64,000 bases of DNA from NCBI GenBank assembly GCA_007132975.1, contig SLNO01000023.1, forward strand, positions 1-64,000, given 5' to 3'. Positions within the stretch are counted from its first letter, which is position 1; every line of letters starts with the position of its first letter. Under the pieces are notes generated by a model, which was given only the letters and a program-made list of their open reading frames with translations, made no database searches and was not told where the DNA came from. Shown here one piece after another: positions 22,457 through 60,896 of the stretch. The stretch comes from Balneolales bacterium. GTDB lineage: Bacteria > Bacteroidota > Rhodothermia > Balneolales > Natronogracilivirgulaceae. The translations under genes were made by a program, and so were the position numbers.

Positions 22457-22556
22457 TTTCATCTGTTTAAATCAATTAAGATTCATAAGGACAGAATGAA
22501 CTCACATGGCAGGATTTGATCATCTCCCTGTGTGTCAACAAGAGGCTGCCATGTTC
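22457..22556 (+). repeat. Palindromic intergenic element, unit A1 (type I)
   Basis: The unit begins with TTTCATCTGTTTAAAT, continues GATTCATAAGGACAGAATGA, and carries an inverted pair ACATGGCAG (22504-22512) and CTGCCATGT (22546-22554), perfect over 9 bp, with CCTGTGTGT between the arms. It aligns along its length with unit B3 at 58647-58745, whose arms differ in sequence but are also complementary. Confidence 0.75.
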
Positions 22557-22577
22557 GTAGCGCTTCGCGACCTTCGG

Positions 22578-22680
22578 TTCATGTGTTTAAAATTTTTGAT
22601 TTACAATGTCACATAGAATATTCATGACGATTTTAATCATACTCCTGTGTGTCGGGGATATTACCCGGTCATGAATATTT
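22578..22680 (+). repeat. Palindromic intergenic element, unit A2 (type II)
   Basis: The unit starts TTCATGTGTTTAAAAT and contains CACATAG, then arm AATATTCATGAC (22617-22628), TTTTAATCATACT, CTGTGTG, a small hairpin CGGG/CCCG, and arm GTCATGAATATT (22668-22679), a perfect 12-bp complement of the first arm. It is about 70 per cent alike to A3 and to B1/B2 by eye; the arms are the most divergent part but remain paired. Confidence 0.78.
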
Positions 22681-22781
22681 CATCTGTTTAAAAATTTTGG
22701 ATTCATTTGGACACATAGAATGTCCAAGATGTTTTCAGTCATACTCCTGTGTGATCGGGATGATGTCCGGTTATGGGCATT
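22678..22781 (+). repeat. Palindromic intergenic element, unit A3 (type II)
   Basis: The unit starts TTTCATCTGTTTAAAAAT, with GGATTCATTTGGACACATAG, arm AATGTCCAAGA (from 22719) and arm TTATGGGCATT (22771-22781). They pair at 10 of 11 positions if two G-U wobbles are allowed. CTGTGTG and a short CGGG/TCCG hairpin lie between. It is contiguous with A2 and ends 130 bp before the AGCS symporter start. Confidence 0.75.
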
Positions 22782-22910
22782 TCATGTGTTGTAAAAAAAC
22801 ACTATCATTTTTCGTGATATCTGTCCGGCAGTCATTGCGTGTTGAGGGAGGAGCTCGCAACGGCCTTTCGAATTCCCACAATTATCCAAATTCCCATAAC
22901 CTACAGCATT

Positions 22911-57686: not shown

Positions 57687-58292
57687 TTATTTATGCGGCT
57701 TTAGCGAGCGGTATGCAACCAGATGCGAGATACCATCAGGGTGTACGAACCCGATTCTGGCGGGAATGGTTGGCAGGTTCAGGTTTTTCGCGATAGCAAT
57801 TCTGTGGGCTCCTTGCCCGACATGAATCAGTTCCCCATTTCTGCCAATGCAAAGCGTGATCAAATGCTTATCCTTTGATGAAAAAGCCCCGTCCTTTTTT
57901 ATTTGTTCATAAATAGCATCCAACTTCATGTACCGCTTTTTCAATTCATTGTGCATTTCAACAGAGTCATCGCCAAAGATTTTCATTTTGTATTCAAACA
58001 TACCGATTTCTTCCCATGACATACCTTTGTTATATCGCGTATCGATGGCATCATCCTTGAATTCATTTGAGCCATTATCAGCGTGTTGGTCCCAATCTCC
58101 CTGCACGACGCATCCGCTTAGCCTTCGCAGCTTCGTAATTCTCTTTTTCGCCACATCGTGCTTAAGCTTGAATTTGATATCATTGGGATTGACGTTGATT
58201 TTTTCCTGATATGCAGGCACTTTGGAGCCGAATTTCATCAGGTATCTGAAATTCAACAGATATACAAATGCTTTTTTTACTGTTTTCATCAT
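57687..58292 (-). CDS. ParB/sulfiredoxin-fold-like protein
   Basis: The 201-residue protein ends in a ParB-like core: HLITLCIGRNGELIHVGQGAHRIAIAKNL with the G-x-HR-x-A-x-A motif at ~161-168. This resembles proteins found near polysaccharide genes in diverse bacteria and archaea. The N-terminal half (KVPAYQEKINVNPNDIKFKL, SGCVVQGDWDQHA, YNKGMSWEEIGMFEYKM) matches the same uncharacterised group. It is lysine-rich with AT-leaning codons unlike its neighbours, suggesting acquisition. It sits alone between repeat cluster B and the sparse region. Function is unknown. Confidence 0.65.
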   Translation of the reverse strand: MMKTVKKAFVYLLNFRYLMKFGSKVPAYQEKINVNPNDIKFKLKHDVAKKRITKLRRLSGCVVQGDWDQHADNGSNEFKDDAIDTRYNKGMSWEEIGMFEYKMKIFGDDSVEMHNELKKRYMKLDAIYEQIKKDGAFSSKDKHLITLCIGRNGELIHVGQGAHRIAIAKNLNLPTIPARIGFVHPDGISHLVAYRSLKPHK

Positions 58293-58428: not shown

Positions 58429-58537
58429 AAGGGCCACGACATGTCCGCATGCCATCCTGGTCACACAGGAACATGATTAAAAGTGTCATGGTCATTCTAT
58501 GTGTCCTTATGAATCATAACATATTAAACAGATGAAA
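58429..58537 (-). repeat. Palindromic intergenic element, unit B1 (type II, degenerate)
   Basis: Read on the minus strand it begins TTTCATCTGTTTAATA, contains GATTCATAAGGACACATAG (shared with A1 and A3), arm AATGACCATGACAC, CTGTGTG and a partner arm that pairs at 11 of 14 positions. It is the most decayed unit of the family. Confidence 0.65.
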
Positions 58538-58635
58538 TGACCATAACCGTAGCCCGGTCACACAATAGCATGATTAAAAGTGTCATGGTCATTCTATGTG
58601 ACGAAATGAATCCAAAATTTTAAACACATGAAATA
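58529..58635 (-). repeat. Palindromic intergenic element, unit B2 (type II)
   Basis: On the minus strand: TTTCATGTGTTTAAAATTTTGG, CACATAG, arm AATGACCAT (plus-strand 58585-58593 complement), TTGTGTG, hairpin ACCG/CGGT, then arm ATGGTCATT (58536-58544). The arms are perfectly complementary over 9 bp yet differ from those of A2. Confidence 0.75.
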
Positions 58636-58646
58636 ATTAATGAAAT

Positions 58647-58745
58647 TTTCATCTGCTTACATCAACTTAGACTCATAAGACCGGAATGAAAGCACATGAC
58701 ATAAAGCATCGTGCCCCCTTGTGACAGCGGGTGGCTGTCATGTTC
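58647..58745 (+). repeat. Palindromic intergenic element, unit B3 (type I)
   Basis: It starts TTTCATCTGCTTACATCA and aligns with A1 (GACTCATAAGACCGGAATGA). Arms ACATGACA (58694-58701) and TGTCATGT (58736-58743) are perfect 8-bp complements and differ from the A1 arms in a compensatory way. It points away from B2 and ends 136 bp before the acyl-CoA synthetase. Confidence 0.75.
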
Positions 58746-58880
58746 TTTTCCTTGATACCATTATAATCTATAGATATGTGATCAAACTATGCAATAAAAA
58801 AGCGTTCTATTAATAAAGTCTAATGCATTTCAAACCATTGAACTACGAGACCCTGCCACCTCAAGAAAATTTGCAAGATC

Positions 58881-60896
58881 ATGCAAACACTAGTCCAGTT
58901 CACCGAACATTATTGCAAGAAATATGCCGACAATCCTTATATGTGGGAAAAACCGCGAAGACTTACCAAGGGTCAGTCCACAGGCAGAAGCAAAACAAAC
59001 CCTGCCGAAATGGGCAAGTCAGCGGGGAGCGGCCCGGAGCCCTATCAGCCGACGACTTACCGGCAGACACTCGACCAGATCCATGAGTTCGGTGCCGGAC
59101 TCATGGCACTGGGCGTGGAGCCGGGCGAACGGGTGGCGCTTCTGTCGGAAGGACGCAACGACTGGGTTGTCAGCGAACTGGCCATCCTGTTCAACGGAGC
59201 TGTAAATGTGCCGCTCTCTGTAAAGCTATCGCCAGTGGAACTGCAGTTCCGGCTGTTCCATTCCGATGCCTCGGTGCTGATCATCTCGGAGGGACAGCTC
59301 CACAAAATCGCCGATATCCGTGCCAATCTGCCCGACCTGAAACAGATCATCCTGCTGGATCCGCGGGAACACTACGCAGAGGATGAAATCAGCAAGAACA
59401 AGGTGATCAGGATGGGGCACCAGCTGCTTGAGAAACGCCGCGACGATTTTGAGCGCAGGAAGGATGCTGTCGGTCCGAACGACCCGGCCAACATTTCCTA
59501 TACCTCCGGTACTACCGCCGATCCCAAGGGAATCATCCTCACCCACCGCAATTACACGGCCAACGTGGAGCAGGCACTAACGCTGATGGACATCCCTCCA
59601 TCCTACCGTACGCTGCTTATCCTGCCTCTGGACCATTCCTTCGCCCATACGGCGGGCATCTATTCATTTATGGCCAAGGGGGCAAGCATTGGCATGGTGG
59701 AAGCTGGACGCACGCCAATGGAGACTTTGCGCAACATCCCCGAAAATATTAAGGAACTCAAGCCCAATCTTCTCCTGAGCGTGCCGGCCCTTGCGAAAAA
59801 CTTCCGGAAGAACATCGAGGCGGCGATCCGCGCCAAAGGGCCATTCGTCCAGCGGCTGTTTGAAGACGCCCTTAAAACCGCCTACAAGTACAACCGCGAG
59901 GGCTACAACAAGAACACGTGGGACCTGGTCAGCCGCAGCAAGCTTTTCCTGTACGACAGGATCCTGTTCCGCAAGGTACGCGAGAATTTTGGAGGCGAAC
60001 TCAAGTTCTTCATCGGCGGCGGTGCACTGCTCGACATTGAGCTTCAGCGCTTTTTCTATGCGCTGGGCATGCCGATGATGCAGGGATACGGATTGTCAGA
60101 AGCCACACCGATCATCTCCTCCAATTCTCTGGACAAGCACAAACTGGGGTCGTCTGGGCATCTGGTCACCCCGCTGGAACTGAAGATTGTCGATGCGGAG
60201 GGACGTGAACTTCCGGTCGGACAAAAGGGTGAGATCATCATCAAAGGTGAGAACGTGATGAAGGGGTACTGGAAAAACCCTGATGCAACGAGGGAGACAA
60301 TCCGTGACGGCTGGCTCTATACAGGCGATATGGGTTACCTTGATGAGGATGGCTTTTTGTACGTCCTGGGCCGGTTCAAGAGCCTGCTGATCGGACATGA
60401 CGGGGAGAAATACAGTCCGGAGGCCATAGAGGAGACGATATCGGAGAAATCGCGGATTGTTGAGCAGGTTATGCTTCACAACAATCAGGACCCCTATACA
60501 GTGGCGCTTCTTTTCCCCAACAAGGAGGCTCTGAAGCGAAAATTGGCGGAGCAGTCGGGTGGAAAAGGGGCATCATTCGGTCAGGGTGACGATAGCGATG
60601 AAACGACCGGACAACTGGTTGACCAGGCGCTGGAAATCATCAAGGCTGAGATCGATCAGTACCGGGATGGGGGACCGTTGGGCAATCATTTCCCGGACCG
60701 TTGGCTTCCCAGTGCTGTCGGCATCCTGCCGGAAGGTTTCACAGAGGAGAACAAGATGATGAACAGCACCATGAAAATCGTGCGAGGCCGCATCACGGAT
60801 ACGTATGAAGAGCTGCTGGAGTATCTGTACCTGCCCGAAGGGCGTGATATAAAGAATCGGCGCAACCGCCAAGTGATGGAAAAAATGCTGACTTAG
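58881..60896 (+). CDS. Long-chain fatty-acid CoA ligase (AMP-binding)
   Basis: The 671-residue adenylate-forming enzyme shows SYTSGTTADPKGIILTH, the YGLSEATPI motif, GWLYTGDMGYLDEDGFL and RFKSLLIGHDGEKYSPEAIEE. It is longer than the other synthetase in the window, with extra C-terminal segments (~residues 575-671, rich in charged residues), the layout of FACL/FadD15-type long-chain enzymes. It lies downstream of repeat cluster B. The ATG at 58881 is chosen because MQTLVQFTEHYCKKYAD fits the usual N-terminus. Confidence 0.9.
   Translation: MQTLVQFTEHYCKKYADNPYMWEKPRRLTKGQSTGRSKTNPAEMGKSAGSGPEPYQPTTYRQTLDQIHEFGAGLMALGVEPGERVALLSEGRNDWVVSELAILFNGAVNVPLSVKLSPVELQFRLFHSDASVLIISEGQLHKIADIRANLPDLKQIILLDPREHYAEDEISKNKVIRMGHQLLEKRRDDFERRKDAVGPNDPANISYTSGTTADPKGIILTHRNYTANVEQALTLMDIPPSYRTLLILPLDHSFAHTAGIYSFMAKGASIGMVEAGRTPMETLRNIPENIKELKPNLLLSVPALAKNFRKNIEAAIRAKGPFVQRLFEDALKTAYKYNREGYNKNTWDLVSRSKLFLYDRILFRKVRENFGGELKFFIGGGALLDIELQRFFYALGMPMMQGYGLSEATPIISSNSLDKHKLGSSGHLVTPLELKIVDAEGRELPVGQKGEIIIKGENVMKGYWKNPDATRETIRDGWLYTGDMGYLDEDGFLYVLGRFKSLLIGHDGEKYSPEAIEETISEKSRIVEQVMLHNNQDPYTVALLFPNKEALKRKLAEQSGGKGASFGQGDDSDETTGQLVDQALEIIKAEIDQYRDGGPLGNHFPDRWLPSAVGILPEGFTEENKMMNSTMKIVRGRITDTYEELLEYLYLPEGRDIKNRRNRQVMEKMLT

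Follow-up and report, generated by a model that had tools for sequence, protein, structure and literature searches.

Two clusters of one repeat family

The window analyzed here, a 64,000-nucleotide stretch of contig SLNO01000023.1 from a Balneolales bacterium, contains two clusters of the same repeat family, denoted A (22457–22785) and B (58446–58752). Cluster B comprises three units: a tandem type II pair on the minus strand and, on the plus strand, a decayed type I unit. The pair and the single unit meet head to head at a junction located at about 58634–58646. The relevant features are:

22457–22563, plus strand: unit A1, type I, cluster A (covariance model, 48 bits)
22577–22683, plus strand: unit A2, type II, cluster A, located 3' of a longer linker, AGCGCTTCGCGACCTTCGG (covariance model, 118.9 bits)
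22678–22785, plus strand: unit A3, type II, cluster A (nhmmer, 69 bits; included in the family alignment)
57687–58292, minus strand: ORF flanking cluster B, 201 aa, no Pfam family matched
58446–58537, minus strand: unit B1, type II, distal (nhmmer, 69 bits); the far end is decayed, with ATGTCGT for ATTTCAT
58532–58537, minus strand: boundary hexamer TTTCAT (ATGAAA on the plus strand) common to B1 and B2, from reading of the sequence
58532–58633, minus strand: unit B2, type II, proximal, with both boundary hexamers present (covariance model, 118.5 bits, E = 2.5e-24; included in the family alignment)
58628–58633, minus strand: outer boundary hexamer of the minus-strand array (ATGAAA on the plus strand), with no long ORF starting there
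58647–58752, plus strand: unit B3, type I, decayed (covariance model, 47.5 bits, E = 3e-8), beginning with TTTCAT at 58647–58652 and carrying TTTTCC at the far end
58881–60896, plus strand: gene flanking cluster B, AMP-binding, long-chain acyl-CoA ligase-like (Pfam PF00501, E = 6e-77)

The original prediction described cluster B as one type I and two type II units, two on the minus strand and one on the plus strand, arranged head to head between divergent genes, with a second cluster of like composition elsewhere in the window. This description holds: the direct repeats (two copies of 60 nt, 87% identical, with a spacing of 97, at 58456–58612), the covariance model, which was built from members of the repeat family, and nhmmer agree on the units, the flanking genes are divergent, the gaps are close to the predicted values, and cluster A has the expected composition. 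Cluster B is unusual in its inverted pair; other arrays of the family are head to tail. The head-to-head order is explained by ATGAAA at 58628–58633 and TTTCAT at 58647–58652, which put a target on each strand of one 25-base stretch.

The repeat unit is about 96 nt long and comprises two covarying hairpins bounded by the hexamer TTTCAT (reverse complement ATGAAA). On one strand, the layout is [TTTCAT]STGTTTAAAA-N-GGATTYATAAGGTCASATAGAAT-hairpin 2-[TTTCAT], and the consensus can be written as [TTTCAT]STGTTTAAAA...GGTCASAT(A/G)GAAT[hairpin 2]TTTCAT, where S is C or G. In hairpin 1, ATSTG pairs with CASAT, with S opposite S; hairpin 2 runs straight into the next TTTCAT, and in tandem arrays the right hexamer of one copy is the left hexamer of the next. 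Across 60 units, 97% of the pair cells are standard and 37 double changes were counted, compared to 10.5 in shuffles. Among 57 more distant matches, double changes occur in all 11 pairs of hairpin 2 and the S-S pair of hairpin 1 is CG in 25 and GC in 25, although the alignment of these matches was fitted to the covariance model, so that its pair counts lean towards structure. Folded as single-stranded DNA, a consensus-like unit has a z-score of -3.7. Terminal inverted repeats are absent: STGTTTAAAA and TGTCCATGAC, the reverse complement of the other end, are not inverted copies. The internal sequence CASAT(N)GAA can pair with TTTCATSTG, leaving one base bulged, in nearly all of the home units that were aligned; the same bases make hairpin 1, so that guide and stem are indistinguishable. 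Comparison of the unit with the Rfam 15 covariance models produced no meaningful match. We also considered a leader peptide encoded within the unit (most units contain an ATGATT frame, which in 30 of 50 terminates 4 nt short of the main ATG), which was rejected as unsupported: indels shift the frame in the remaining units, the AGGAG lies only 1 nt from the putative ATG, and Shine-Dalgarno sequences are not used in this phylum.

Distribution of the repeat family

The home genome yields at least 50 significant matches to the repeat, far beyond the chance expectation, and nhmmer on 38 sampled regions of this genome identified 82 or more units, grouped into about 45 clusters; these and all other unit copy numbers are lower bounds, and the genomes are mostly incomplete MAGs. 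The arrays contain 1 to 5 units, head to tail, some with the longer linker found in cluster A. Of the 60 genomes searched, 20 carry the repeat; among them are the nine remaining genomes of the genus and members of many genera within the family. It is scarcely present in other families of the order. Among named genomes, the exact unit pattern was found only in Balneolales/Balneolaceae MAGs, mostly from sets (CSSed) that we take, from the isolate names, to come from soda lakes. A phylum-wide covariance model search matched 13 of 297 genomes, and the matches include four or more families that do not belong to the order.

Beyond cellular genomes, a search of viral contigs with four repeat patterns gave no match, and the only viral match is a short form of about 46 nt in the phage contig IMGVR_UViG_3300010430_006947 (L310, 2970–3021). 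It lies at the start of a tail gene, between the baseplate-hub and endolysin genes, and parts two genes that would otherwise nearly overlap. No copies were found in the plasmids searched. Truncated forms occur in cellular genomes as well: in a different genus (G013, L206, 5085–5135), units of about 45 nt that correspond to the left part only are located at array ends; they may be deletion products, or the left part may be capable of moving by itself. Upstream of atpC in G012 (L176), the sequence between the end of atpD and the start of atpC retains only some 30 nt similar to a unit's proximal end, an apparent deletion remnant.

Array ends at start codons, and empty sites

Examination of the array boundaries reveals a stringent positional preference. 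Of the 61 array ends examined, 49 have as their outermost ATGAAA the start of an unrelated gene; at most arrays, the outer hexamer provides the start and second codons of a gene that points outward. Simple ORF calls gave 46 of 61; these calls are heuristic, and the greedy choice of ORFs had missed the start codons at L009, L021, and L023, which were scored as intragenic and corrected by eye. The background is 44 starts among 125 other non-intragenic ATGAAA hexamers (odds ratio 7.5, P = 9e-9). About 20% of the array ends lack a recognizable start codon. The start-codon targets include topA, metK, lysC, a glucose-1-phosphate thymidylyltransferase-like (rmlA-like) gene, pstA-like and FKBP-like genes, and many more; in the relatives, purQ, ispF, and atpC (these gene names were taken from recognizable N-termini, not from family searches); and, across the phylum, rpmH, queA, proC, pssA, an aldolase, a DAHP-synthase-like gene, and an ABC transporter. 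Outside the family, 54 units were read by eye, of which 47 are proximal and 37 of these 47 are at real starts; this is a hand count, and the corresponding Fisher test used the background of the home family. With regard to the polarity of array growth, proximal units score 75 bits against 63 for distal units (P = 0.003); the full-length type II units by themselves show no such difference (P = 0.83).

These observations bear on the original proposal that a regulatory module had been placed between divergent genes, some 130–140 bp from each. The similar distances of clusters A and B to both flanking genes are what such a module would produce, but the pattern fails at the other loci, where flanking genes in all orientations (++, --, -+, +-) are found and the majority of arrays run directly into a start codon, without any intervening bases. 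This refutes the explanation as a general rule, and we consider it very improbable. A and B are themselves atypical, belonging to the roughly 20% of arrays without a recognizable start codon at the end, and the similarity of their distances is a coincidence of two atypical copies. Variation of unit number and spacing elsewhere, the outcome that the original proposal had named as its refutation, is what the other loci show, while orientation and spacing obey a different and stricter rule.

Another line of evidence comes from the orthologs of six genes in 15 genomes, retrieved with one concatenated query, for which the upstream regions were compared. At each of these genes, an array abuts the ATG in some species, and unrelated sequence occupies that place in others; in nearly all cases the empty alleles begin with ATGAAA or a near variant (ATGAAC, ATGAAT, or ATGACC). 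In atpC, both flanks align between the filled and empty alleles in two close genome pairs (G003 vs G005 and G007 vs G002); the empty allele holds one ATGAAA and the filled allele holds one on each side of the insertion. These insertions fall inside the operon, in the short stretch that separates the atpD stop codon from the start codon of atpC, and atpC is therefore presumably translated from the end of the element. Because empty orthologous sites hold a single ATGAAA and filled ones hold one on each side, the repeat is most likely a small mobile element, non-autonomous and with one fixed hexamer as its target. The mobile character that was originally suggested is thus upheld by presence and absence at orthologous sites with clean empty alleles, whereas the accompanying idea of placement between divergent genes is not.

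The same comparison argues against an inherited cis-regulatory RNA leader, akin to a riboswitch or thermosensor, that would define a regulon, with the tandem copies acting as multi-domain sensors. Such a leader would fit the 5' leader position, the covarying structure, the possible pairing with the start codon, and the presence of units at the same gene in several species (lysC in G000 and G006; purQ in six genomes). However, presence at the same gene is polymorphic among close relatives, with exact empty sites, the target genes share no common pathway, some copies lie away from genes, and there is no matching Rfam family, all of which makes this explanation improbable. Mobility would nevertheless be compatible with a secondary regulatory role of the element.

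A closer competitor is a MITE-like repeat that targets TTTCAT anywhere, with insertions at starts surviving selection, inasmuch as they do little harm before an ATG, and intragenic insertions being lost. The target hexamer, the short non-autonomous form, the frequent use of ATGAAA as a gene start, and the roughly 20% of arrays at non-start hexamers all accord with this possibility, and retention by selection of copies that supply a working leader could yield enrichment at starts without targeting. Nevertheless, outside genes, starts are enriched 7.5-fold over their availability, and the unit has no terminal inverted repeats; overall, we deem this scenario a genuine possibility, if not the favored one.

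Bacteroidetes initiate translation without Shine-Dalgarno sequences, and in Flavobacterium johnsoniae adenines at positions -3, -6, -12, and -13 raise initiation (PMC6847099). In the units, A is found at -6 in 44 of 57, at -11 in 48, at -12 in 52, and at -13 in 35, with an A-rich stretch from -11 to -15, matching most of the positive positions of F. johnsoniae (PMC6847099); position -3, where A is favored in that bacterium, is C in 57 of 57 units. The unit plausibly carries a working initiation region, and this would be why insertion before essential genes is tolerated. In the mRNA, hairpin 1 would pair with the start codon weakly (computed mean of about -4 kcal/mol); such pairing could hinder initiation, and masking of the AUG that is this weak would leave room for regulation.

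Relationships with known mobile elements and a possible mechanism

The repeat resembles the IS200/IS605 elements in several respects. IS608 inserts 3' of a retained tetranucleotide, TTAC, and its internal guides pair with the cleavage sites; the right guide, GAAT, is located 5' of the right hairpin (PMC5934647). Similarly, the repeat inserts directly 3' of a retained left TTTCAT in nearly all arrays, with exact empty sites, lacks inverted repeats, has a hairpin adjoining each boundary hexamer and an orientation fixed by the asymmetric hexamer, and grows in tandem; its internal sequence nearly complementary to the target may be the counterpart of a guide, although the same bases form hairpin 1. 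Unlike these elements, it is only about 96 nt long, has the same hexamer at both ends, sits at start codons, and is found mostly in genomes without a Y1 transposase. Searches for a Y1 transposase detected none in the home genome, in most of the genus, or in G218, a carrier of nine or more units, and because of this absence we treat the resemblance as an analogy and do not file the repeat as a member of IS200/IS605.

The likeness to other small repeats is partial. REPs are palindromes of 20–40 nt (PMC3733652), and the repeat shares with the REP/BIME elements moved by TnpA_REP (RAYT) the many short, folded, extragenic copies that are often clustered; it differs in consisting of two-hairpin units of about 96 nt at ATGAAA, whereas REPs are tied to a Y1 gene. 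No RAYT gene flanked by repeats was found: among the Y1 loci scanned for nearby units, a clear unit is present only at L255 and a weak match at L250. As with classical MITEs, the units are short, non-autonomous, and dispersed, and may influence neighboring genes, but have no terminal inverted repeats and use a fixed hexamer rather than a variable target duplication. The Rickettsia palindromic elements are mobile palindromic repeats that reside in frame inside ORFs and add a peptide (PMC10969869); the present repeat is likewise mobile, palindromic, and tolerated in contact with coding sequence, but its end coincides with the start codon, and what it contributes is a leader. The pneumococcal BOX and RUP elements are small interspersed repeats near genes (PMC3049150). 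The repeat shares these three properties with BOX and RUP, and its sequence is unrelated to theirs. We know of no homing to start codons by BOX or RUP, and start-codon homing by such a leader appears to be undescribed in Rfam and in the open-licence papers searched.

In the mechanism that we propose, the element would land directly upstream of an ATGAAA hexamer, by preference one that starts a gene, leaving ATGAAA on both sides, and a further copy could land at either hexamer, giving rise to head-to-tail arrays. The coding sequence would be unchanged, with the element becoming the last 96 nt or so of the gene's 5' leader and bringing an A-rich stretch in front of the AUG, as used by initiation without Shine-Dalgarno sequences in this phylum; we infer that the resulting leader is efficiently translated or regulates its gene. 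By analogy to IS200/IS605, the form that moves may be a folded single strand whose internal CASAT(N)GAA base-pairs with the target, a route that we put forward tentatively. Extending this to a phylum-wide class of start-codon-homing elements, in which folded strands would find AUGAAA by pairing, be moved by an unrecognized enzyme, and supplant the translation initiation regions of genes with portable start-masking leaders that place housekeeping and phage genes under common control, is speculative, and we regard it as doubtful.

Such docking at the starts of essential genes without breakage would illustrate how a transposable element can occupy the part of a bacterial genome with the least room to spare, and may suit a phylum in which initiation dispenses with Shine-Dalgarno sequences. 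The 5' leaders of metK, topA, atpC, rpmH, and other genes are rewired, which can affect start-site annotation and studies of regulation in this phylum. Should the target be chosen by base pairing, the repeat would represent a small, sequence-programmable insertion system.

The searches for an enzyme that could move the repeat covered several classes. No reverse transcriptase (RVT_1) was found in five genomes of the genus, the home genome included, and the search for Y2 transposases gave no match, with the control genomes equally silent. Nor was a longer, autonomous copy found: in two complete genomes, the left-end pattern occurs at six places, five of which are known units. Only two tyrosine recombinases are present in the home genome, which bears on the possibility that an XerCD- or integron-like enzyme recombines a small circle with TTTCAT as a 6-bp crossover. 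The shared 6-bp core, the fixed orientation, the tandem arrays, and the presence of two such enzymes fit this scheme, but the empty targets have only the hexamer in common, with no flanking arms for binding, and two is the number expected for the housekeeping XerC and XerD, the putative identity of these proteins; this makes it slightly less probable even than the inherited regulatory leader. An IS200 common to G001 and G013 was also considered as the mover and rejected, its ends being unrelated to the repeat. This IS200-type Y1 insertion sequence is 98% identical over 559 bp between G013 (L180, 1405–1963) and G001 (L181, 1401–1959), and its occurrence in these two genera of the family appears to be a sign of recent transfer.
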